64,000 nt of DNA, from contig CANDBT010000006.1 of NCBI GenBank assembly GCA_947383005.1, forward strand, positions 1 to 64,000. Direction: 5' to 3'. The notes under the pieces are model-generated. The model had not been told where the DNA came from. It saw nothing but the letters and a program-made list of their open reading frames with translations, and did no database searches. A program made the position numbers and the translations under genes. This DNA comes from an uncultured bacterium. Lineage in GTDB: Bacteria > Bacillota > Clostridia > Lachnospirales > Lachnospiraceae. The stretch's first letter is position 1; every line of letters begins with the position of its first letter. Shown here one piece after another: positions 26,902 to 37,637 of the stretch.

Positions 26902-27248
26902 AGGTAACGGTTCAGACGGGAAAAGACAGCCTGTCTGGGCCGTTATCATTTTCATAGTAAACCCCATGCCACATTCTCGGCACCACCATAAATGAAAGTG
27001 GGGTTTACTATGAACCCTCCGGGGGATGCACACGGAATGCAAAAACGGCATTCCGGCGCTGTACGGACAGCGCAGCAAGTGCGCAGTCCTACCGTAAGAA
27101 ATCGATACTTTCATAGTATATTTACAGTTATCTTACAAATATTTACTTCTTTTGGTTGCCTGTTTCTTTTCTTGGTAGATTGTGTTATCGTAGGGATAGA
27201 AGAAATTCGGATGACGGATGGGTTGTATTAATTTTGAGAAAAGACGGG
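26902..27248. other. non-coding region rich in inverted repeats
   Basis: 347 bases without a gene. It starts with a family B element (26903-26947: GTAACGG ... CCGTTATC). Then comes a perfect 16-bp inverted repeat TTCATAGTAAACCCCA (26951-26966) / TGGGGTTTACTATGAA (26999-27014), then smaller hairpins GGAATGC/GCATTCC and GCGCTGT/ACAGCGC up to about 27080. No known RNA family is recognised. Confidence 0.6.
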
Positions 27249-27806
27249 ATGATTCGTATGAGGGCAAAAGGCGTTTGGATTTATCTGTGCCTGGTTTTAT
27301 GCGTCGGTTTTTTTTCTACCAGTTTAGTTAAAAGACGGACAGAGAATGAGAGCGGGATAGAATTGGCGGCATTGAGAGAAGGGCAGGATATTGCCTTTTT
27401 GTCAGAAGAAGATGAAGTGGAGGAGAGCCAGGAGGCAGAGCTTTCCAATTCTGCTTTAACCCGGCTGCGTGAACTGGATGACCGAATTGTCCAGAACCGG
27501 GCGAAAGAAAGTGCAGTAAGTGTCAATTCCCGAAAGGCTGTACTGGAAAATGAGAGGAGATTGTGGGAAGGAGAGGTGCAAAATATTCTGAATACCCTGA
27601 AAGAGCAGCTCAGTGCCGATCAGCAGGACGAGTTGATGCTTAGTCAGAAAGAATGGATGAAAGAAAGGGAAAGCCAGGCAATTGCTGCCTCTCGGAAACA
27701 ATCGGGGACATCTATGGAAGAGTTGGATTACAGCATGGTTTTGGCGGAAATGACCCGTGAACGGGCTTATGATCTGGCCGACGGATACGGGGATTATTTT
27801 AAATAA
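27249..27806 (+). CDS. secreted DUF1311/LprI-like protein
   Basis: 185 residues. N-terminal membrane or signal segment (GVWIYLCLVLCVGFF), an acidic linker, then a helical domain with the LprI-type pattern LWEGEVQNILNTLKEQL and the QKEWMKERE motif. LprI-like domains occur in exported proteins, some of which inhibit lysozyme. No lipobox cysteine is placed for processing. Start uncertain (ATG 27249 or 27258; neither has a strong ribosome site). Function unknown. Confidence 0.7.
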   Translation: MIRMRAKGVWIYLCLVLCVGFFSTSLVKRRTENESGIELAALREGQDIAFLSEEDEVEESQEAELSNSALTRLRELDDRIVQNRAKESAVSVNSRKAVLENERRLWEGEVQNILNTLKEQLSADQQDELMLSQKEWMKERESQAIAASRKQSGTSMEELDYSMVLAEMTRERAYDLADGYGDYFK

Positions 27807-27814
27807 TTGGAAAA

Positions 27815-27891
27815 CCGGACGAGAAGCATCGGGTATTCACCCGATGAGGAAAACCGGATGAAAACAGTCTTATAAGCAAGCTTGACGCCTG
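27815..27891 (+). repeat. 77-bp direct repeat, copy 1
   Basis: Identical to 27935-28011, exactly 120 bases downstream. Contains a perfect CATCGGGT/ACCCGATG hairpin and a stretch reading AACCGGATGAAAACAGTC. Confidence 0.85.
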
Positions 27892-27934
27892 CTATTGTTG
27901 CGGTTTACGGGGCGGATCTTCTTGTCCGGCTATG

Positions 27935-28028
27935 CCGGACGAGAAGCATCGGGTATTCACCCGATGAGGAAAACCGGATGAAAACAGTCTTATAAGCAAG
28001 CTTGACGCCTGTTTTCATCCGGTTTTCC
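27935..28028 (+). repeat. 77-bp direct repeat, copy 2, plus 20-bp inverted repeat
   Basis: 27935-28011 repeats copy 1 without mismatch. In addition, 27968-27987 (GGAAAACCGGATGAAAACAG) pairs perfectly with 28009-28028, making a 20-base-pair stem with a 21-base loop that copy 1 lacks. Confidence 0.85.
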
Positions 28029-28977: not shown

Positions 28978-29041
28978 ATGCGCAGGCCCGCATACGGAAG
29001 TAAGCTGCTGGCGCAGCGTGCGGGCCGCGCGGCGATTAGGG
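28978..29041 (+). repeat. family A repeat, copy A3
   Basis: ATGCGCAGGCCCGCATACGG ... TGCGGGCCGCGCGGCGATTAGG. Outer stem GGCCCGCA/TGCGGGCC. Followed by its second hairpin AGGGGAA/TTCCCCT (to about 29060), then copy A4 in tandem. Confidence 0.85.
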
Positions 29042-29068
29042 GAAAAGCTTCCCCTACTCGATGATATA

Positions 29069-29132
29069 CAGGCCCGCAAACGGAAATAAGCTGCTGGCGC
29101 AGCGTGCGGGCCGCGCGGCGATTAGGGGAAAG
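29069..29132 (+). repeat. family A repeat, copy A4 (tandem with A3)
   Basis: CAGGCCCGCAAACGG ... TGCGGGCCGCGCGGCGATTAGGGG. Here the second hairpin is cut short and the AGGGGAAAGGAG tail becomes the ribosome site of the SWIM gene at 29141. Confidence 0.85.
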
Positions 29133-29140
29133 GAGAAGTT

Positions 29141-30604
29141 ATGAGAACATTCAGTGAGCAGCAGATCGTGTTCCTGGCGCCAAATGGCAATGCGGTGAAT
29201 AATGCCAGAAAAATTTCTTCCGGCGGGGGCTTTGTTATGAGGCGCAGGTCGGCGGATGATACTTTTTATATGGGGGAATGTAAAGGGAGCGGAAAATCCA
29301 ACTATGTCGTGTCAGCGGATTTCATTGATGAGGAGCATCCTGTTTTCCGCTGCAGTTGCCCAAGCAGGCAGCTTCCCTGTAAGCACAGCCTTGCGCTGCT
29401 GTTTGAAATCGCGGGGAAAAAAGATTTCCTGGTGGGCGAGATTCCGGAGGATATTTTAGAAAAGCGCAAGAAAAAACAGGCCAGAGAAGAGAAAAAAGCG
29501 GAGGCGGCCGCTTCGGGGGAGAAAAAGGCGCCTTCGGGAAAGAGCAGCCGGGCGGGCAAGGCTGCCCGGACAAAAAAGATAAAGAAACAACGGGAAGGCT
29601 TATCTGTGATGAAACAGATGGTAGATCAGTTGATGAATATGGGGTTGTCGGCAATGGGAAGCGTGTCGCTGAAAAGCTATCGGGATTTGGCTAAACAGTT
29701 GGGCGACTATTATTTGCCGGGTCCGCAAAATTACTTTAACCGTTTGGTTTTGGAGATGGAAGCTTATCAGAAGGATCAGGATCCCGGACATTATCATCAG
29801 GCAGTAGAGGTACTGAAACGTTTGAGAGCTTTGGAACGTAAGGCAGACAGCTACTTGGAGGAAAAGCTGGAAAAAGACAATCCGGAGGCTGACGACGATA
29901 TTTTGTATGAGGAGCTGGGAGGCATCTGGAAATTGGAGCAGCTTAATGATTTGGGGCTGAAAAAGGAAAAAGTACGTCTTATGCAGTTGTCTTTTCAGGT
30001 GATTTTTGATGCAGCCCGCAAAGAATACATAGATTTGGGGTATTGGGCGGATGTGGATACAGGGGAGATTTCCTGCACCCGCAATTATCGGCCATTAAAG
30101 GCACTAAAATATGTAAAACAGGAAGATTCGTGTTTTGAAGTAGCACAGGTGCCTGTGCTCAGCTATTATCCGGGCGGAATGAATAAGAGAATCCGTTGGG
30201 ACGGAGTAACGTTTGCCCCAGTAGAACGGACGGATTTGGAGGCGGTTATTAAATTTGCCTATCAGGACATTGCTTCTGCGGCAAAACCAGTTAAAAACGA
30301 GCTGAAAAATCTTTTGTCAGAGGATTATTGCGGCGTACTGCTGTTTTTTGAACGTATCGGGCGGATTAAAAACGGGCAGGGAGAAATTTACGTGATGGAG
30401 GATAAAACCGGCAGCAGGATAGAATTGCGGGTGAGAGGGGACTGGGAAAATACTCTTGCGGCATTATCGCTTATCCCGGATCAGGAAGTCCTTCATGGCC
30501 AGGTATTGTTTGGGCTTATGTATTATGACCAGGAAGATAAGAAAATTTGTTTATATCCATGCAGTATTGTGACCGCAAAGGGCATTGTGAGGTTATTATA
30601 TTAA
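29141..30604 (+). CDS. SWIM zinc-finger protein (first gene of MoxR/VWA operon)
   Basis: 487 residues. SWIM zinc motif CxCx6CxH: Cys71, Cys73, Cys80 and His82 (CSCPSRQLPCKHSLALLFEI). A lysine/alanine-rich linker follows (about residues 107-150), then a helical and mixed C-terminal region with no recognised enzyme motif. SWIM domains bind DNA or proteins. AAAGGAGAAG from repeat A4 precedes the ATG. The gene leads SWIM, HEAT-like, MoxR, DUF5682, VWA, a set I recognise as recurring together in other bacteria, mainly Actinobacteria. It may act as the target-recognition part of the machine; that is inference. Confidence 0.85.
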   Translation: MRTFSEQQIVFLAPNGNAVNNARKISSGGGFVMRRRSADDTFYMGECKGSGKSNYVVSADFIDEEHPVFRCSCPSRQLPCKHSLALLFEIAGKKDFLVGEIPEDILEKRKKKQAREEKKAEAAASGEKKAPSGKSSRAGKAARTKKIKKQREGLSVMKQMVDQLMNMGLSAMGSVSLKSYRDLAKQLGDYYLPGPQNYFNRLVLEMEAYQKDQDPGHYHQAVEVLKRLRALERKADSYLEEKLEKDNPEADDDILYEELGGIWKLEQLNDLGLKKEKVRLMQLSFQVIFDAARKEYIDLGYWADVDTGEISCTRNYRPLKALKYVKQEDSCFEVAQVPVLSYYPGGMNKRIRWDGVTFAPVERTDLEAVIKFAYQDIASAAKPVKNELKNLLSEDYCGVLLFFERIGRIKNGQGEIYVMEDKTGSRIELRVRGDWENTLAALSLIPDQEVLHGQVLFGLMYYDQEDKKICLYPCSIVTAKGIVRLLY

Positions 30605-30681
30605 AAAAGCCATTTTAACGGTTGCGATTGGTTGCTTTGATAACATGCGGTTTATGATGAATGAAGATAAAGGAGCGGCTT

Positions 30682-32604
30682 ATGAACTTAGGAGCGGTAT
30701 ATGAGTTGCGGGAGCGGCTGGAAACGGCGGCCATTGCCGGAGTGAACCTGATTTCCGAAGATTTCCGGCTGAAACGGGCAGTACAGCAAATGGAGCCATT
30801 GGGAAAGGCGTCGCCCGTGTTTCGGAAGATTGAGCTGATGGCAAAAAAGCTTGTTGAACCAGAGTGCGAAGACCGGGCCGGTGTGCTGTTGGATACTCTG
30901 GGACTGGTGGACGCGGTATTGTGTACGCAGGGGTCAACCCAGACGGAAGGAGAAATTGAAGATTTGGATACGCCGGCTTCCGACGGCAATATCTATTATC
31001 CTGCTTCCTACAGTAAGCTGGCACCGGTATTGGAAGCATTTCGCAGTACTGGCAGCGGGCGATACGCAATAGTGGAGAATGCTTATGAAACCATGCCGGA
31101 GATATTTGAGGATTACCGGATGGTTTACTGGATGGTAAAAGCCCTGGGGGATGTCTATGCGGAACTGGCAGATCTGGTGGCAAATAAACTGGAACAGAGA
31201 GGGGAAAAGGTTATCCCGCTGTTAAAGCAAAACTTTGACCGGGAAGGCAAGCGGGAAATGGCACGCAGGATTTCCGTCATAGAAAAGATTGCCGGCAGCA
31301 AGGAAAATGAATTCTACCGTTTTGCGGCGGAAGCGGGAAGCAAGGAGGTCCGTGAGGCGGCTATCGGGGCATTACGTCATGATATGTCTAATTTGCCTTT
31401 GCTTTTGGACCTATATAAGGCGGAAAAAGGAAAGTTAAAAGAAGCTGTCCTGACTTCCCTGGCTTATATGGACGGAGAGGAAGCAGAAAAATTCTGGCAG
31501 ACGGCGATGAAGAAGAAGCCGTTGGAGGCCAGCGGTTATCTGCAGTATTCGGTCAAAGACTGGGCATCAGATTTGATTGCTGACGAGCTGGACCGGCAGA
31601 TTGAAGATTATGTAAGCGGTATCGGCAAGGATGAGATAAAAGAGGCCCAGACAAAGGAAGAGGAAGAGAAAGCCAGGGCAAAGGCCAGGGAAAAAAAGGC
31701 GGAGGCAAGAAAAATACTGGAATCTTTATGGAGAAGGGCCGAAGGGAAACACTCGGATAAGATTTGCCGGTGTTATGAGAAGATATACCGGATTTTCCCC
31801 AAACAGGTGCCAGAAGTACTTATCCATTCTTTGATTCAGGAAAACCATCCCTCCATCTGCCGCCTGGCAGAAGAAATGTACCAGGCTCACGGAAACGATT
31901 TCCTGGAATCCGTGTTCCTTGTTTCGCTGCTGAATAATCCTGCCGAACAGACTTATGATGAGTTTAGCCGATGGATGGCGCCGGAAAATTATGTGGAGGA
32001 GGAGCCGCTGAAAGAGGGAAAGGGAAAGATGCTGCGGGGTTTTGCCCAGTACTTTGCCCGGATTTTTTATGACGAAAACGATGGCGGCTATTGGGTGAGC
32101 AGGGAAGAATTCCAGGTGAGAGGAAGGGCTAAAGCCAGGAAAATCGAAGCAGGATTTGATTTGCGCTGGTATTCTTTGCTGCTGAAATATCCGGGGCGCC
32201 ATGACAGGGGCCACAGGGATACCTATAGTGCATACAGGAGCTTTTATGACGAGATTGTGGCAGGGCTGTACCGTCCGGATGTAGAGTCCCTGCAGCGTCC
32301 TTACGGGGAATTCTTTTACGAGGCCATGACGCCGCTGCTGCCGACTACAGAAGGGGTAAGGATGTTAAAACGGTGCGGCTGGACGGATTATCGGGGAATA
32401 CTAAAAAACTGTATCCGCAAAAACAGCTATGCTACCTATGTGATCCGCCAGTTGATTCAGGAGCTGCCGTTGACCAACGAGGAGCTGGCGGACGAATTAG
32501 ATGAGGCCATTCAGGAAAACAAACACAGAGCGATTAACGGGATCGGCCTTTGGGAAAAATGGCGGGATGGCCTGCGCAGCGGGATTTCCGCAGATAAATT
32601 GTAA
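30682..32604 (+). CDS. HEAT-repeat-like scaffold protein of the MoxR/VWA operon
   Basis: 640 residues, almost entirely helical. Short repeating helix pairs resemble HEAT repeats (for example RRISVIEKIAGSKENEFYR, then EVREAAIGALRHD). A charged linker rich in Lys/Glu/Ala lies near residues 315-345. ATG 30682 is selected because AAGGAG is 6 bases upstream; the upstream in-frame ATG lies before it. It occupies the position of the DUF5691-type protein in related operons. Likely a scaffold or adaptor; no catalytic motif is seen. A MITE (copy 2) separates it from moxR. Confidence 0.75.
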   Translation: MNLGAVYELRERLETAAIAGVNLISEDFRLKRAVQQMEPLGKASPVFRKIELMAKKLVEPECEDRAGVLLDTLGLVDAVLCTQGSTQTEGEIEDLDTPASDGNIYYPASYSKLAPVLEAFRSTGSGRYAIVENAYETMPEIFEDYRMVYWMVKALGDVYAELADLVANKLEQRGEKVIPLLKQNFDREGKREMARRISVIEKIAGSKENEFYRFAAEAGSKEVREAAIGALRHDMSNLPLLLDLYKAEKGKLKEAVLTSLAYMDGEEAEKFWQTAMKKKPLEASGYLQYSVKDWASDLIADELDRQIEDYVSGIGKDEIKEAQTKEEEEKARAKAREKKAEARKILESLWRRAEGKHSDKICRCYEKIYRIFPKQVPEVLIHSLIQENHPSICRLAEEMYQAHGNDFLESVFLVSLLNNPAEQTYDEFSRWMAPENYVEEEPLKEGKGKMLRGFAQYFARIFYDENDGGYWVSREEFQVRGRAKARKIEAGFDLRWYSLLLKYPGRHDRGHRDTYSAYRSFYDEIVAGLYRPDVESLQRPYGEFFYEAMTPLLPTTEGVRMLKRCGWTDYRGILKNCIRKNSYATYVIRQLIQELPLTNEELADELDEAIQENKHRAINGIGLWEKWRDGLRSGISADKL

Positions 32605-32656
32605 AAGTATTTACAGAGTTTTTTTGTGCCTGAGAGATTTCAGGAGTGAATGTAAG

Positions 32657-32819
32657 ATGTACTCTCAGAATCTTTTCTGCACCTGCCTTTGTAGCTGATT
32701 TTCCGTCATATGCACCTAAATTTAATCAACGTACGTTTCACGTACGCCTCATAAATTTATGCACATCTGACAAAAAATCATCTCACAAAATCAGGCACAG
32801 AGAAACTCCGAGAATACAT
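32657..32819. mobile_element. MITE-like palindromic element, copy 2
   Basis: 163 bp, inverted relative to copy 1 and about 95% identical by eye (8 differences counted). It starts ATGTACTCTCAGA and ends with the complement of ATGTATTCTCGGAG. The flanks are TAAG on both sides (32653-32656, 32820-32823), a 4-bp duplication different from the TGAT at copy 1. The long internal palindrome is centred on CGTACGTTTCACGTACG. It interrupts the accessory operon 25 bases upstream of the MoxR start, just outside its ribosome site. Confidence 0.82.
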
Positions 32820-32843
32820 TAAGGAAATTAGGAGGGATCAGTG

Positions 32844-33932
32844 ATGAACGAACAAAATATGCAGCGGCTGCCGGCAGAGCAGTTGTTTAAAAAGGAGATT
32901 GACGCATTGATTGCCAATGAGACTCATCCGGTGCCTGCCGGCTGGAGGATGTCGCCAAAATCGGTGCTTACCTACATTTGCGGAGGCAGATCGGGAGACG
33001 TGGAAATCACACCAAAATATATTGGCCACAAAAGGCTGGTCGAAATAGCGATTTCTACATTGGTGACGGATCGTGCCCTGCTTTTGATCGGTGAGCCGGG
33101 GACAGCCAAGTCCTGGCTGTCCGAGCATCTGACGGCAGCCATCAACGGAGACTCCACACGGGTAATCCAGGGTACCGCCGGAACCACGGAAGAGCAGATA
33201 CGTTATTCTTGGAATTATGCTATGCTGATTGCCAACGGGCCTTCTAAAGAAGCGATGATCCCCAGTCCGATTTACCGTGCCATGGAGGAAGGAATGGTAG
33301 CCAGGGTGGAGGAAATTTCCCGCTGTGCCTCGGAAGTCCAGGATGCACTGATTTCCATTTTGTCTGAGAAACGGATTTCTGTTCCGGAGTTGGGCATTGA
33401 AATCCCGGCCAGGAAGGGATTCTCGGTGATTGCCACGGCCAATACGAGAGACAAAGGTGTCAATGAAATGTCGGCGGCGCTGAAAAGGCGTTTTAATATT
33501 GTAGTACTTCCCACGCCGGACAATCTGGAGGCGGAGATGGAAATTGTGCAGACGAGGATGGAGCAGTTGGCGGAAAACCTGGATTTGCATGCCCGCCTGC
33601 CGGAACAGGAAGTGGTGGAAAAAGTATGTACGATATTCCGGGAGCTGCGGTCCGGGGCAACTATGGATGGAAAGCAGAAATTGAAGCCTACCACCGGTGT
33701 ATTGTCGACAGCAGAAGCGATTTCTTTGCTGGCCAACAGTATGGCTTTGGCGGGAAGTTTCGGAAATGGTACGATTACAGATTATGATCTAGCGGCCGGC
33801 CTTCAGGGAGCTATTGTAAAAGAGGACAGCAAGGACCAGAAAGCCTGGGAGGAATATCTGGAAAATATTATGAAAAAACGGGGTTCCCGGTGGCTGTCTT
33901 TGTATCAGGAGTGCAGGGAGCTGAATCATTGA
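32844..33932 (+). CDS. MoxR-family AAA+ ATPase
   Basis: 362 residues. Walker A GEPGTAKS at residues 83-90, sensor 1 VIATANTRDKG, arginine finger and sensor region ALKRRFNIVV. The usual MoxR Walker B (hhhhDE) reads ARVEEISR, so the first acidic residue is Glu instead of Asp. MoxR proteins work as chaperone-like unfoldases with VWA partners, here the gene at 36409. AGGAGG lies 8 bases before ATG 32844; GTG 32841 is the other possible start. Third gene of the accessory operon. Confidence 0.93.
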   Translation: MNEQNMQRLPAEQLFKKEIDALIANETHPVPAGWRMSPKSVLTYICGGRSGDVEITPKYIGHKRLVEIAISTLVTDRALLLIGEPGTAKSWLSEHLTAAINGDSTRVIQGTAGTTEEQIRYSWNYAMLIANGPSKEAMIPSPIYRAMEEGMVARVEEISRCASEVQDALISILSEKRISVPELGIEIPARKGFSVIATANTRDKGVNEMSAALKRRFNIVVLPTPDNLEAEMEIVQTRMEQLAENLDLHARLPEQEVVEKVCTIFRELRSGATMDGKQKLKPTTGVLSTAEAISLLANSMALAGSFGNGTITDYDLAAGLQGAIVKEDSKDQKAWEEYLENIMKKRGSRWLSLYQECRELNH

Positions 33933-33991
33933 GTGAAGAATCGTAGATGGGCATATGCGGTTACGAACAGTAACGGAGGGAAGGGAAGGCC

Positions 33992-36376
33992 ATGGAGTTA
34001 AAGCAGAAAACAGAGAAAGCCCTGAAAGCGGGGGGGATTCCTAAAGTATTTGGCATCCGCCATCTGTCTCCGGCGGGAGCTTACTATTTGCGGGAATACT
34101 TAGATCAGGAAAAACCGGAGCTGGTGCTGATTGAGGGGCCGTCGGATTTTACCGGGCTGATTGGGGAATTGGGGGGAGAAGAGGTAAAGCCTCCGGTAGC
34201 GGTTATGTCCTATACTCTTACTTTGCCGATTCGGACGCTTTTGTATCCTTTTGCCATATATTCCCCAGAATATCAGGCGATTTGCTGGGCCAGGGAGCAT
34301 GGCTGCCCATGCCGTTTCTGTGATTTGCCGTCGGAAATTTTTTTGGGATTTGCGGAGCAAAGAGCGATTGAGCGGGCAAAGGCAGTTGAAGAAGGAAAAG
34401 ACGAACAGGAAAGGCGTGAGCCGCCGATTGCTTTGGTATACCAAAAACTGGATGAATTGTCGGAAGACGGGGACAGCGAGACCTTTTGGGAGCGGACTTT
34501 GGAGCAGGCTGCAGATGCAAACGGGTACCGGAAAGGGGCGATACAGTTTGGTACTTCCCTGAGAAGCCTTTCCATGGGACAAGGCGTTGCGGGGCAAAGC
34601 CCTGTGGGACAGGACGAGGAGGATAGGGAAAATCTTGTCCGGGAAGCGTATATGTGCCGGATTGCCGGTATGGCGATAAAAGAGGGGATGAATCCGGAAA
34701 AGATTGTTATGGTCACCGGCAGTTTCCATGTGGAGGGTATATTGCAGGGGATGAAAGCCATCGCGGGAGGAAAAGAAACGATGACGGATAAGCAGTTGGC
34801 CCGTCTTCCCAGGCTTGAAGCAAAAAAAACGTTGATGCCGTATTCCTATTACCGCCTTTCCGAGCGTTCCGGCTACGGAGCCGGCAATCGTGCTCCGGCA
34901 TATTATGAAATGATATGGGATGGTCTGTGCCGGAAAGAAGCAGATTATGCAGGACGCAGATATCTGGCTTCCCTGGCTGCTTTTCAGAGAGAACAGGGGA
35001 ATATGGTGTCTTCGGCGGAAATAATCGAAGCCGGACGCCTGTCTTATGCGTTAGCCAGGCTTCATGGCGGACAGATTCCCGCTTTACAGGATTTGCGGGA
35101 CGGGGCGCTGACCTGTATGGGGCATGGTCGTTTTGGGGAGATTGCCCTGGCAGTTGCGGATACGGAAATCGGGACCAAAATCGGCCGCTTGCCGGAAGGT
35201 GTCAGCCAGACTTCGGTCCAGTCGGATTTTTACTATCAGTTGAAGGAACTGCGGCTGGAAAAATATAAATCGGTATCGGCCCAGCAGTTATCTTTGGATT
35301 TGCGGGAAAATTTGCGGGTAAAATCCCCAAAAGCTGCGTTTATTGATTTAGAGCGTTCGTTTTTTCTGCATCGGCTGAGAGTATTGGGGATTTCATTTGC
35401 TCAGATTCAGGCAATGCAGCAGGAACGGGCTACCTGGGCGGAACAATGGCTTTTGCGCTGGACACCGGAGGCGGAAATGCAGATTGTGGAAGCTGTGCTT
35501 AAAGGAGATACGATAGAGCAGGCCGTGGCTTTTGAATTAAAAGAGAGGATTGCAGCCAGCCAGGGGATTGCCGGCCTGGCCGAGATAATTGAGGAATCTT
35601 GCCGATGTGGTATGCCCGTGGTGCTGGAACAAGCTGTGACCACACTGCAGAAGACTGCTGTGGATGCGGTATCCGTTACAGAAATCGCGGAAACGGCGGG
35701 CAGATTATCTATGGTGCTGCAATACGGAGATATCCGCAGGCTGGACAGAAAGCCGCTGATTCCGATATTATCCCAGCTTTTTTTGCGGGCTTGCCTTATT
35801 TTGGCAGGAGAATGCGTTTGTGACGATCAGGCCGCTAAATTGTTGGCGCAGGCGATGAGTACCCTGCATCAGGTATCCGTCAGTCATGATTTTCTTGACA
35901 GCGGGCGCTGGCTGAGCGTGCTGGGGGAAATAGCTGGGCGGGATGATTTGAATACCCGTTTGTCAGGGCTGGCAGCAGCGATTTTGCTGGAGGCCGGGAA
36001 AATGGACAGCGAAGAGTTGGGAAGGGAAGTGCAGCGCCGCCTTTCGCGGGGAATTCCTGCCGAACTGGGAGCAGGCTGGTTTGAAGGGTTGTCCATGAAA
36101 AATCATTATGCCCTCATAGCCCGGTTAAGCTTGTGGGAAAGGCTTAGCGAATATCTTGATGTTTTGGACGATGAGGAGTTTAAGCGGGCTCTTGTATTTT
36201 TGCGCCGGGCTTTTGCCGATTTTTCGGCAGAAGAGAAAGATCAGATAGCGGAAAATTTAGGCGAAATCTGGCAGGTAAATCCGACACAGGTCAGCGAGGT
36301 GCTCAACGGACCGGTTTCCGAAGAAGAGATGGGCCTGTTGGAAGGGCTGGAGGACTTTGATTTTGGGGACATTTAG
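33992..36376 (+). CDS. DUF5682 family protein, putative TIKI/TraB-like enzyme
   Basis: 794 residues. The N-terminus reads FGIRHLSPAGA with a GIRHxSP motif (His24) and LVLIEGPSD (Glu48); about residue 243 comes GSFHVEG. This GxxH ... E ... GxxH pattern resembles the TIKI/TraB/EreA metal-dependent hydrolase fold, so I suggest an enzymatic N-terminal domain. The rest is long, helical and of unknown role. The gene lies 59 bases after moxR and 32 before the VWA gene. The family name is recognised from gene context and the motif; the enzymatic reading is inference. Confidence 0.72.
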   Translation: MELKQKTEKALKAGGIPKVFGIRHLSPAGAYYLREYLDQEKPELVLIEGPSDFTGLIGELGGEEVKPPVAVMSYTLTLPIRTLLYPFAIYSPEYQAICWAREHGCPCRFCDLPSEIFLGFAEQRAIERAKAVEEGKDEQERREPPIALVYQKLDELSEDGDSETFWERTLEQAADANGYRKGAIQFGTSLRSLSMGQGVAGQSPVGQDEEDRENLVREAYMCRIAGMAIKEGMNPEKIVMVTGSFHVEGILQGMKAIAGGKETMTDKQLARLPRLEAKKTLMPYSYYRLSERSGYGAGNRAPAYYEMIWDGLCRKEADYAGRRYLASLAAFQREQGNMVSSAEIIEAGRLSYALARLHGGQIPALQDLRDGALTCMGHGRFGEIALAVADTEIGTKIGRLPEGVSQTSVQSDFYYQLKELRLEKYKSVSAQQLSLDLRENLRVKSPKAAFIDLERSFFLHRLRVLGISFAQIQAMQQERATWAEQWLLRWTPEAEMQIVEAVLKGDTIEQAVAFELKERIAASQGIAGLAEIIEESCRCGMPVVLEQAVTTLQKTAVDAVSVTEIAETAGRLSMVLQYGDIRRLDRKPLIPILSQLFLRACLILAGECVCDDQAAKLLAQAMSTLHQVSVSHDFLDSGRWLSVLGEIAGRDDLNTRLSGLAAAILLEAGKMDSEELGREVQRRLSRGIPAELGAGWFEGLSMKNHYALIARLSLWERLSEYLDVLDDEEFKRALVFLRRAFADFSAEEKDQIAENLGEIWQVNPTQVSEVLNGPVSEEEMGLLEGLEDFDFGDI

Positions 36377-36408
36377 GAATAGCCGTTTGAGAAAAGGAGC
36401 CGGATGAG

Positions 36409-37602
36409 ATGGAGATAAAAGAGCAGATGAAGCGATGGAGACTGATTCTGGGGGAAGAAAGCCAGGCACAGTTTGATTCGATGGGGGGCGCCGGAGAGAT
36501 GCAGCTTTCCCAGGAGCAATGGCAGATGGATCAGGCTCTGGCAGCCATTTATAATAAAGATTTTGCCGGTGGTTTCGGTCCCGGCGGCAGAGGAGCCGGA
36601 AAAGGCCCTTCCAATCCACAGATTACCCGGTGGCTGGGAGATGTGAGAACGCTTTTTGATAAAGATTTAGTGAAGATTGTCCAGTCAGACGCTATGGAGC
36701 GGTGCGGCTTAAAACAGTTGATTTTTGAGCCGGAGCTTTTGGAAAACCTGGAGCCGGATATGAATTTGGCCACGACGATTTTATTGCTCAAGGATCAGGT
36801 GCCAAAGCGGAGCAAAGAAAGTGTCAGGGAATTTATGGCAAAGATCGTGGAGGAGATTAATAAGCTGCTGGAAAGCGATATCCGCCGGGCCGTGACGGCG
36901 GCGGTAAACCGGCGTCAGCATTCTCCTATCCCCTCGGCGGCGGCTCTGGATTTTCCTACAACGATTCGCCGGGGGATAAAAAATTATAACCGGGAACTAG
37001 GAAAAATCATACCGGAACATTACTATTTTTTTGACCGGACGACGAAAACGGCGGCCAACAAATATACGGTAATCCTCGATGTGGATCAGAGCGGATCCAT
37101 GGGGGAATCGGTGATTTATTCTTCCATTATGAGCTGCATTTTGGCGAGTATGGCGGCTTTGCGCACGAGGATTGTAGCTTTTGATACACAGGTAGTGGAT
37201 TTGACGGAAAAATGCGAAGACCCGGTGGATTTGCTGTTTGGGTTTCAGCTTGGCGGCGGCACGGATATCCATAAATCGATTGTATATTGCCGGCAATTTA
37301 TTGAAAATCCGAAAAAAACCTTGTTTTTCCTGATCAGCGATTTGATGGAAGGCGGCAATCGGGCAGGGATGCTCAGACGGCTTGAGGAGATGAAAGAATC
37401 CGGAGTTACCGTTGTGTGCCTCCTGGCTATTGCTGATGGAGGAAAACCCTATTATGACGCTCAGATGGCGCAGAGAATTGCTGCCGTAGGGATTCCTTGT
37501 TTTGCCTGCAATCCGCAAAATTTGCCTCTTTTGTTGGAAAGGGCGCTGAAAGGGCAGGATTTGGCGGCATTTCAGAAAGAGTTTGAAGAAAAAAAGAAAT
37601 AA
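36409..37602 (+). CDS. VWA-domain protein, partner of MoxR ATPase
   Basis: 397 residues. Helical N-terminal half, then a von Willebrand A domain with an intact MIDAS: Asp226-x-Ser228-x-Ser230 (LDVDQSGSMGES), the threonine of GGGTD, and the Asp in LISDLMEGG. It is a CoxE/YehP-type VWA that would bind a metal-linked partner surface and act with the MoxR ATPase. AAGGAG lies 9 bases upstream. Last gene of the operon; a new consensus promoter starts within a few bases of its stop. Confidence 0.92.
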   Translation: MEIKEQMKRWRLILGEESQAQFDSMGGAGEMQLSQEQWQMDQALAAIYNKDFAGGFGPGGRGAGKGPSNPQITRWLGDVRTLFDKDLVKIVQSDAMERCGLKQLIFEPELLENLEPDMNLATTILLLKDQVPKRSKESVREFMAKIVEEINKLLESDIRRAVTAAVNRRQHSPIPSAAALDFPTTIRRGIKNYNRELGKIIPEHYYFFDRTTKTAANKYTVILDVDQSGSMGESVIYSSIMSCILASMAALRTRIVAFDTQVVDLTEKCEDPVDLLFGFQLGGGTDIHKSIVYCRQFIENPKKTLFFLISDLMEGGNRAGMLRRLEEMKESGVTVVCLLAIADGGKPYYDAQMAQRIAAVGIPCFACNPQNLPLLLERALKGQDLAAFQKEFEEKKK

Positions 37603-37608
37603 AGTCCG

Positions 37609-37637
37609 TTGACTTGTTTTTCCAGATGACTTATAAT
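37609..37637 (+). promoter_or_regulatory. sigma-A promoter of yicC operon
   Basis: TTGACT (37609-37614), 17 bases, TATAAT (37632-37637). A partial family B sequence (GTAGCGGTTCAGACAG) follows in the leader at 37644-37659. Confidence 0.88.

Follow-up and report, generated by a model that had tools for sequence, protein, structure and literature searches.

A five-gene cassette built around a YehL-type MoxR–VWA pair in an uncultured member of the Lachnospiraceae

Five adjacent genes, at positions 29141–37602 of a 64,000-nucleotide stretch from an uncultured member of the Lachnospiraceae (GenBank assembly GCA_947383005.1, contig CANDBT010000006.1, positions 1 to 64,000; hereafter the window), encode a probable MoxR–VWA machine whose set of components is new: a SWIM zinc-finger protein, a HEAT-repeat solenoid protein, a MoxR AAA+ ATPase, a DUF5682 protein, and a CoxE-like VWA protein. 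The five genes form one unit. The MoxR, DUF5682, and VWA proteins are homologous to Escherichia coli YehL, YehM, and YehP, respectively, which are encoded in the same order; a preliminary description of this DNA missed this relationship. All five open reading frames (ORFs) are open and intact on the + strand, and Pfam identifies SWIM (E 3e-4), AAA_5 (4e-39), DUF5682 (3e-145), and VWA_CoxE (2e-43) among their products.

Linkage of the five genes

A scan of GTDB genomes with the window MoxR gave at least 567 confirmed relatives, of which the best 80 loci were analysed, so that the locus counts describe one subfamily rather than all DUF5682 loci; the nearest named loci among the matches listed belong to Lachnospiraceae and related Clostridia. 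Beside MoxR, the same locus encodes DUF5682 in 80 of 80 cases, HEAT in 74, VWA in 72, and SWIM in 71, and most of the missing members fall on short contigs. Flank was deemed sufficient with at least 5.5 kb before and at least 4.5 kb after MoxR, which 50 clostridial loci provide; all five genes are present in 49 of these, and 48 of the 49 have the order SWIM–HEAT–MoxR–DUF5682–VWA (HEAT precedes SWIM in L064), with an extra ORF of at least 80 residues between cassette genes in 11. The sole exception among the 50 (L079, 10001–13371) encodes MoxR and DUF5682, with no SWIM, HEAT, or VWA gene within reach, and may represent partial loss or a reduced form. Rearranged loci also occur outside the 50, with VWA upstream (L067) or HEAT before SWIM (L084). 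The flanks mostly differ between loci: even the commonest clusters of flanking ORFs, ABC transporters, recur in 12 of the 80 at most.

Among 41 genomes, strong matches to YehL-type MoxR and to DUF5682 occur in the same 10, two of which carry both in duplicate (weak YehL-type MoxR matches in 8 further genomes were left out of this count). The pairwise distances of the five proteins correlate (r 0.76 to 0.95; 59 sets), and their mean pairwise identity is 0.81 for MoxR, 0.73 for VWA, 0.61 for DUF5682, 0.53 for SWIM, and 0.34 for HEAT, which is thus the fastest evolving. The coherent operon proposed in the preliminary description, at these coordinates and with these five members, is upheld, and the co-occurrence on which that proposal hinged is clearly present in other loci.

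In eight loci (L055, L056, L060, L064, L065, L070, L071, L080), VWA is followed by genes for ClpS, a Clp-type AAA+ ATPase, and a leucyl/phenylalanyl-tRNA protein transferase (for example L065:14549–14887, L070:14902–17226, and L060:17469–18200; one member of each was checked in Pfam), which we take to be an N-degron set. These loci belong to one lineage, with MoxR at least 93% identical, and so count as one event; the block is a hint towards protein quality control, though from that one lineage.

Component proteins and their counterparts

The MoxR ATPase (32841–33932, +; likely true start ATG 32844, after AGGAGG and slightly 3' of the ORF start) aligns with E. coli YehL over its full length (40% identity, 362 columns, 251 bits, E 2e-85) and, by sequence, belongs to the YehL subfamily of MoxR AAA+ ATPases. 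It matches the bpMoxR model marginally (29.2 bits, cut-off 27), as against 134 bits for AAA_5, and a sequence search of solved structures matched it to midasin. Walker A K90, E157/E158, and R216/R217 are kept in 81 of 81 sequences. The VWA protein (36409–37602, +) is similar to YehP (34% identity, E 8e-75) and has VWA_CoxE as its best Pfam match; the same kind of structure search gave no convincing relative for it. Its metal ion-dependent adhesion site (MIDAS) residues D226, S228, S230, T285, and D311 are kept in 70 of 70 sequences, the window included. Classifications of MoxR proteins include a named YehL subfamily, to which the excerpts concerned assign no function (PMC3893208, PMC11432383). 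In known MoxR–VWA pairs, as excerpted from PMC7159879, a client held by the VWA protein is remodelled at the expense of ATP, and NorQD is described as using such remodelling to insert iron (PMC13036017, in excerpt).

The DUF5682 protein (33992–36376, +) shares 25% identity with YehM (E 5e-29). In its structure model (predicted local distance difference test score, pLDDT, 87), the N-terminus (about residues 1–290) matches a TraB/Tiki-type fold and is followed by a C-terminal alpha-solenoid. In TraB/Tiki proteins, Glu and Arg residues lie between two GxxH-type motifs; compared with TraB alignments, the motif layout of DUF5682 fits this set, with the G of the first motif present in part of the family only, and the predicted pocket (H24, E48, R217, G243, H246) is invariant in 74 of 74 sequences. 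The TraB-type match came only from the VIA search: Foldseek of the full model against the PDB returned no match under E 0.001, its rows being mostly helical-repeat proteins, and hhalign of DUF5682 against TraB was not significant. The window protein has no match to Pfam TraB, which is approached by one of the 12 DUF5682 copies in the 41 genomes at E 5e-4, below cut-off. A sequence search of solved structures gave no convincing relative of DUF5682; some of the searches of this kind with DUF5682, SWIM, and VWA gave weak rows to unrelated chains, and a profile of three TraB proteins matched none of the solved chains, the identity of a Tetrahymena chain being unconfirmed. Judged from the model and the invariant pocket, DUF5682 is probably a metal-dependent hydrolase. 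No mention of the family was found in the open-licence literature.

The SWIM protein (29141–30604, +; 487 residues) is predicted to consist of an N-terminal ZSWIM8-like zinc domain (CxCx6CxH), a helical middle, and two consecutive C-terminal OB folds resembling the DNA-binding HIN-200 and RPA domains; a sequence search of solved structures gave no convincing relative. On the basis of the modelled folds, binding of nucleic acid by this protein is probable. The HEAT protein (30661–32604, +; likely true start ATG 30682, after AAAGGAG and slightly 3' of the ORF start) matches HEAT_2 weakly in the window (E 0.025, below the Pfam cut-off), but the assignment is firm for its family, in which 17 of 18 sequences give a HEAT_2 match at E of 1 or less (lowest 1.2e-7). 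A second HEAT gene is present in eight loci (L055, L060, L070, L071, L072, L074, L080, L093). Homology of HEAT to YehI/DUF4132 was rejected, as neither BLAST nor hhalign detected any, and homology to DUF5691 was likewise rejected by hhalign; each profile held four sequences, so that a remote kinship is possible in both cases. Of 28 families matched by the 18 HEAT sequences, the 25 listed do not include DUF5691. The preliminary description had thus read the parts correctly as regards a MoxR–VWA pair with intact MIDAS, a HEAT-like solenoid, and TIKI/TraB-like motifs in DUF5682, the last now joined by a predicted fold, and its suggestion that SWIM recognises nucleic acid is plausible because of the tandem OB folds.

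In E. coli, the SWIM protein YehQ adjoins yehLMP. It has the SWIM domain in common with the window protein, to which it shows no BLAST similarity and only a C-terminal profile match (70% probability). At least 80% of the yehL–yehQ region is covered in 5162 of 5426 E. coli genomes. Among the open-licence titles listed, none deals with the function of E. coli yehL, yehM, yehP, yehQ, or yehI, although papers on single genes may exist; the two papers that name two or more of yehL, yehM, yehP, and yehQ are, by title, a genome announcement and a strain resource. No open-licence paper was found that joins SWIM zinc finger, MoxR, and operon.

A second build, which includes DUF4132 and a longer protein of SWIM type (YehI and YehQ in E. 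coli), is found in G004, G010, G126, G165, and an Allorhizobium plasmid; Pfam was applied to some of these proteins (the SWIM of G004 scored below cut-off and that of G126 was absent), and the rest were assigned by BLAST. Judged by the type of their DUF5682 and MoxR, the congeners G008 and G010 have both builds. A gene assigned by Pfam to the hydrogenase maturase HydF lies between DUF5682 and VWA in two congeners with second-build cassettes (L130:11062–12324, L131:3657–5048).

In five further phyla there are related sets that have DUF5691 or DUF4132 in place of HEAT. The order SWIM–DUF5691–AAA–DUF5682–VWA is seen in Rhizobium, Deinococcus, Methylosinus, and Nocardia, the Nocardia set bearing out an actinobacterial counterpart mentioned in the preliminary description. 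In Hymenobacter, SWIM and DUF5691 are fused in one protein of 1009 residues, the SWIM of which scores below the Pfam cut-off and matches the Rhizobium SWIM protein at E 1e-39. On Methylosinus pOB3b3 (L149, 10229–11367), the VWA match runs over more than one frame with no gene listed, and this copy looks broken. No mention of DUF5691 was found in the open-licence literature.

Genomic setting and mobility

The window build is present in 9 of 24 genomes of the genus, its own included. In all seven carriers that could be checked (again including its own), the cassette lies just downstream of yebC; in the other two, contigs end inside the cassette. Because the yebC site is common to all seven, the cassette is not a recent arrival in its own genome, and it looks inherited within the genus. 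To its right lies yicC-gmk-rpoZ-rimO, a block that is conserved in the genus, and no cassette gene was found beside yicC in 23 congeners, in three of which less than 700 bases before yicC are visible. A unique insertion site, considered from the yicC side, was rejected: the left flank at yebC is common to relatives, and the right junction is peculiar to the window's own genome.

At greater distances, DUF5682 exceeds its cut-off in 5 of 299 sampled genomes of the phylum, the window's own included, and DUF5691 occurs in 1 of the 299. A Fusobacterium record (labelled a plasmid, 2.1 Mb) has the complete clostridial build with a MoxR 82% identical to that of the window, most simply explained by transfer between phyla, and 36 of 72,556 plasmid records carry relatives. 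A contig titled Candidatus Gastranaerophilales (L049, from a metagenome-assembled genome) has the cassette with a MoxR 80% identical; as transfer or mis-binning are both possible, this phylum was not counted. The preliminary description held the cassette to be a separately acquired unit. As a recent local arrival this fails at the yebC site, and as movement over longer distances it agrees with the Fusobacterium copy.

That description also took interruption by a miniature inverted-repeat transposable element (MITE) as backing for acquisition. The MITE-like dispersed repeat (32656–32820; ~165 bp) in the HEAT–MoxR gap is real, with inverted 30-nt arms at 32604–32633 and 32791–32820; it is intergenic, breaks no ORF, lies outside the machine, and has no bearing on the origin of the cassette. 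The 44 matches in its own genome, which include the element itself and some places matched on both strands, correspond to about 40 further places, one of them on the window's contig (4411–4573). Two pairs of tandem direct repeats surround yebC, at 27815–28011 (77 nt, 100%) and 28983–29131 (63 nt, 97%), the latter just 5' of the SWIM gene. Downstream of VWA and outside the cassette, a sigma-70-like promoter match (37609–37637, +; TTGACT-17-TATAAT, 11/12) precedes yicC-gmk-rpoZ-rimO; promoter matches in the region number 10, not above shuffles (mean 9.5). Between rnhA and yebC, the window encodes an LprI-domain protein (27156–27806; Pfam E 1e-10), and the presence of spoIVA 5' of the cassette goes with a host that is probably a spore-forming clostridium.

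Possible function and comparison with known systems

We tentatively favour a reading in which a YehL-type MoxR–VWA remodeller has the DUF5682 protein as its hydrolase-like client and is directed by a SWIM–OB receptor that binds nucleic acid and sits on a HEAT scaffold. We infer a physical complex, in which the MoxR ring and its VWA partner would remodel the client by ATP hydrolysis. The client, or effector, would most likely be the DUF5682 protein, because the gene lying between those for MoxR and VWA (except where the locus is rearranged, as in L067) encodes a protein that resembles an enzyme and has an invariant pocket. As the receptor, SWIM would engage nucleic acid or a target bound to it, and HEAT would be a scaffold or adaptor that gives target specificity, a role that its fast change and second copies would fit. 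Engagement of the receptor might then lead MoxR–VWA to load metal into, unfold, or reposition DUF5682, and so activate it. The physiological role of the cassette probably lies in responding to stress or in quality control, not in dedicated phage defence.

For the YehL subfamily, the data define a set of parts and two architectures, with one component that is probably an enzyme and another that probably binds nucleic acid. If this reading is right, MoxR–VWA chemistry would include the control of an effector enzyme, found in at least six phyla, as well as cofactor insertion. A broader proposal, which we hold with more reserve, is that of a pan-bacterial nucleic-acid-gated AAA+ switch, in which a SWIM–tandem-OB receptor on a solenoid would trigger a YehL-type MoxR–VWA motor to turn on a TraB/Tiki-fold hydrolase, with two interchangeable builds (HEAT/DUF5691 and DUF4132), one of them in nearly every E. 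coli as yehLMPQ–yehI.

It is rather doubtful that the cassette instead serves an unlinked enzyme complex as maturation chaperone or metal insertase, in the manner of RavA–ViaA, NorQD, or CoxDE, with DUF5682, SWIM, and HEAT as adaptors. VWA_CoxE as the best Pfam match of the VWA protein is consistent with this, as are the HydF-like gene between DUF5682 and VWA in two relatives and the dedicated complexes served by characterised MoxR–VWA pairs, as excerpted from PMC7159879, PMC3893208, and PMC13036017. However, no enzyme complex recurs nearby in the varied flanks of the 80 loci, and an invariant pocket such as that of DUF5682 is what one would expect in an enzyme.

An anti-phage or conflict system, in which SWIM–OB would sense foreign nucleic acid, MoxR–VWA would set a threshold, and DUF5682 would damage the cell or the invader, is unlikely. 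MoxR-vWA ternary conflict systems do exist (Kaur et al., 2020; PMC7159879, in excerpt), and the preliminary description linked the cassette to systems of this kind; rarity in the phylum, mobility on long scales (the Fusobacterium copy and the plasmid records), HIN-200-like OB folds, and a least-conserved HEAT scaffold with second copies would all suit this idea. The link is not borne out. None of the five proteins has a convincing match in PADLOC-DB 2.0 (the lowest E, 0.0015, is for MoxR with a model of a restriction enzyme), and none contains a VMAP, iSTAND, FtsH, or beta-propeller domain (Pfam, E up to 0.1). For the defence-island test, 116 of 130 immediate neighbours (14 were left out by eye, from loci near others listed) were compared with 116 control ORFs from eight stretches of the window's own genome, using proteins of 100–899 residues and PADLOC at 1e-10. 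The flanks gave 8 defence kinds by family name, in at most 11 proteins (14 if each model is another protein), and the control gave 6 kinds (19 model matches), these counts being bounds since matching proteins were not individually resolved. There is no clear excess of defence genes among these neighbours (Fisher p 0.31 for 11 vs. 6; 0.10 for 14 vs. 6), and several flank matches are generic (GlgB, subtilase, Mad). The control stretches (L190–L197) include matches to Wadjet-type JetA, JetB, and JetD. Among viral contigs, 83 pattern matches gave no confirmed relative; one unannotated fecal 'Bacteriophage sp.' record has MoxR–DUF5682–VWA at its end and is more likely bacterial DNA. Without a convincing PADLOC match, a clear excess of defence genes, or a VMAP-type partner, and with near-universal presence in E. 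coli, the conflict reading therefore lacks support; DUF5682 is, moreover, conserved rather than a variable effector.

A DNA-damage or nucleic-acid-repair response module is very improbable: the tandem OB folds and the location of yehF (PF05406, which we take to be WGR) and the DUF4132 gene yehI next to yehLMPQ in E. coli would agree with it, whereas, of 141 flank families found, the 25 commonest listed include none for repair, and the window type has HEAT, not DUF4132. Deinococcus DUF4132/WGR proteins, whose genes are at most putative members of this cassette, rise on loss of the damage repressor DdrO (PMC8533742, in excerpt), which adds thin support.

Like RavA–ViaA and NorQ–NorD, the cassette pairs a MoxR ATPase with a VWA partner that would remodel a client; the sequence comparison covered RavA and ViaA, against which its MoxR and VWA proteins, respectively, score only 23.5 bits each. 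It shares with the MoxR-vWA ternary conflict systems, as excerpted from PMC7159879, a MoxR and a vWA with MIDAS alongside further partners, and differs in having none of the four third components described there. The DUF5682 N-terminus resembles TraB/PrgY/GumN (Tiki) proteins in predicted fold and in its H...E...R...GxxH layout, whereas the extra helical tail of ~500 residues, a first motif of xRH rather than strict GxxH, and the lack of a Pfam TraB match over cut-off set it apart. The SWIM–DUF5691–AAA–DUF5682–VWA sets have the same five slots in the window's order, with DUF5691 in the solenoid slot and no homology to the window HEAT detected with four DUF5691 sequences. E. coli K-12 yehLMPQ has the same MoxR–DUF5682–VWA order and an adjacent SWIM protein, but its SWIM gene is at the 3' end and encodes a YehQ of 614 residues, and yehI supplies a DUF4132 protein where the window has HEAT; this locus is an available laboratory model in which the roles proposed here can be tested directly.

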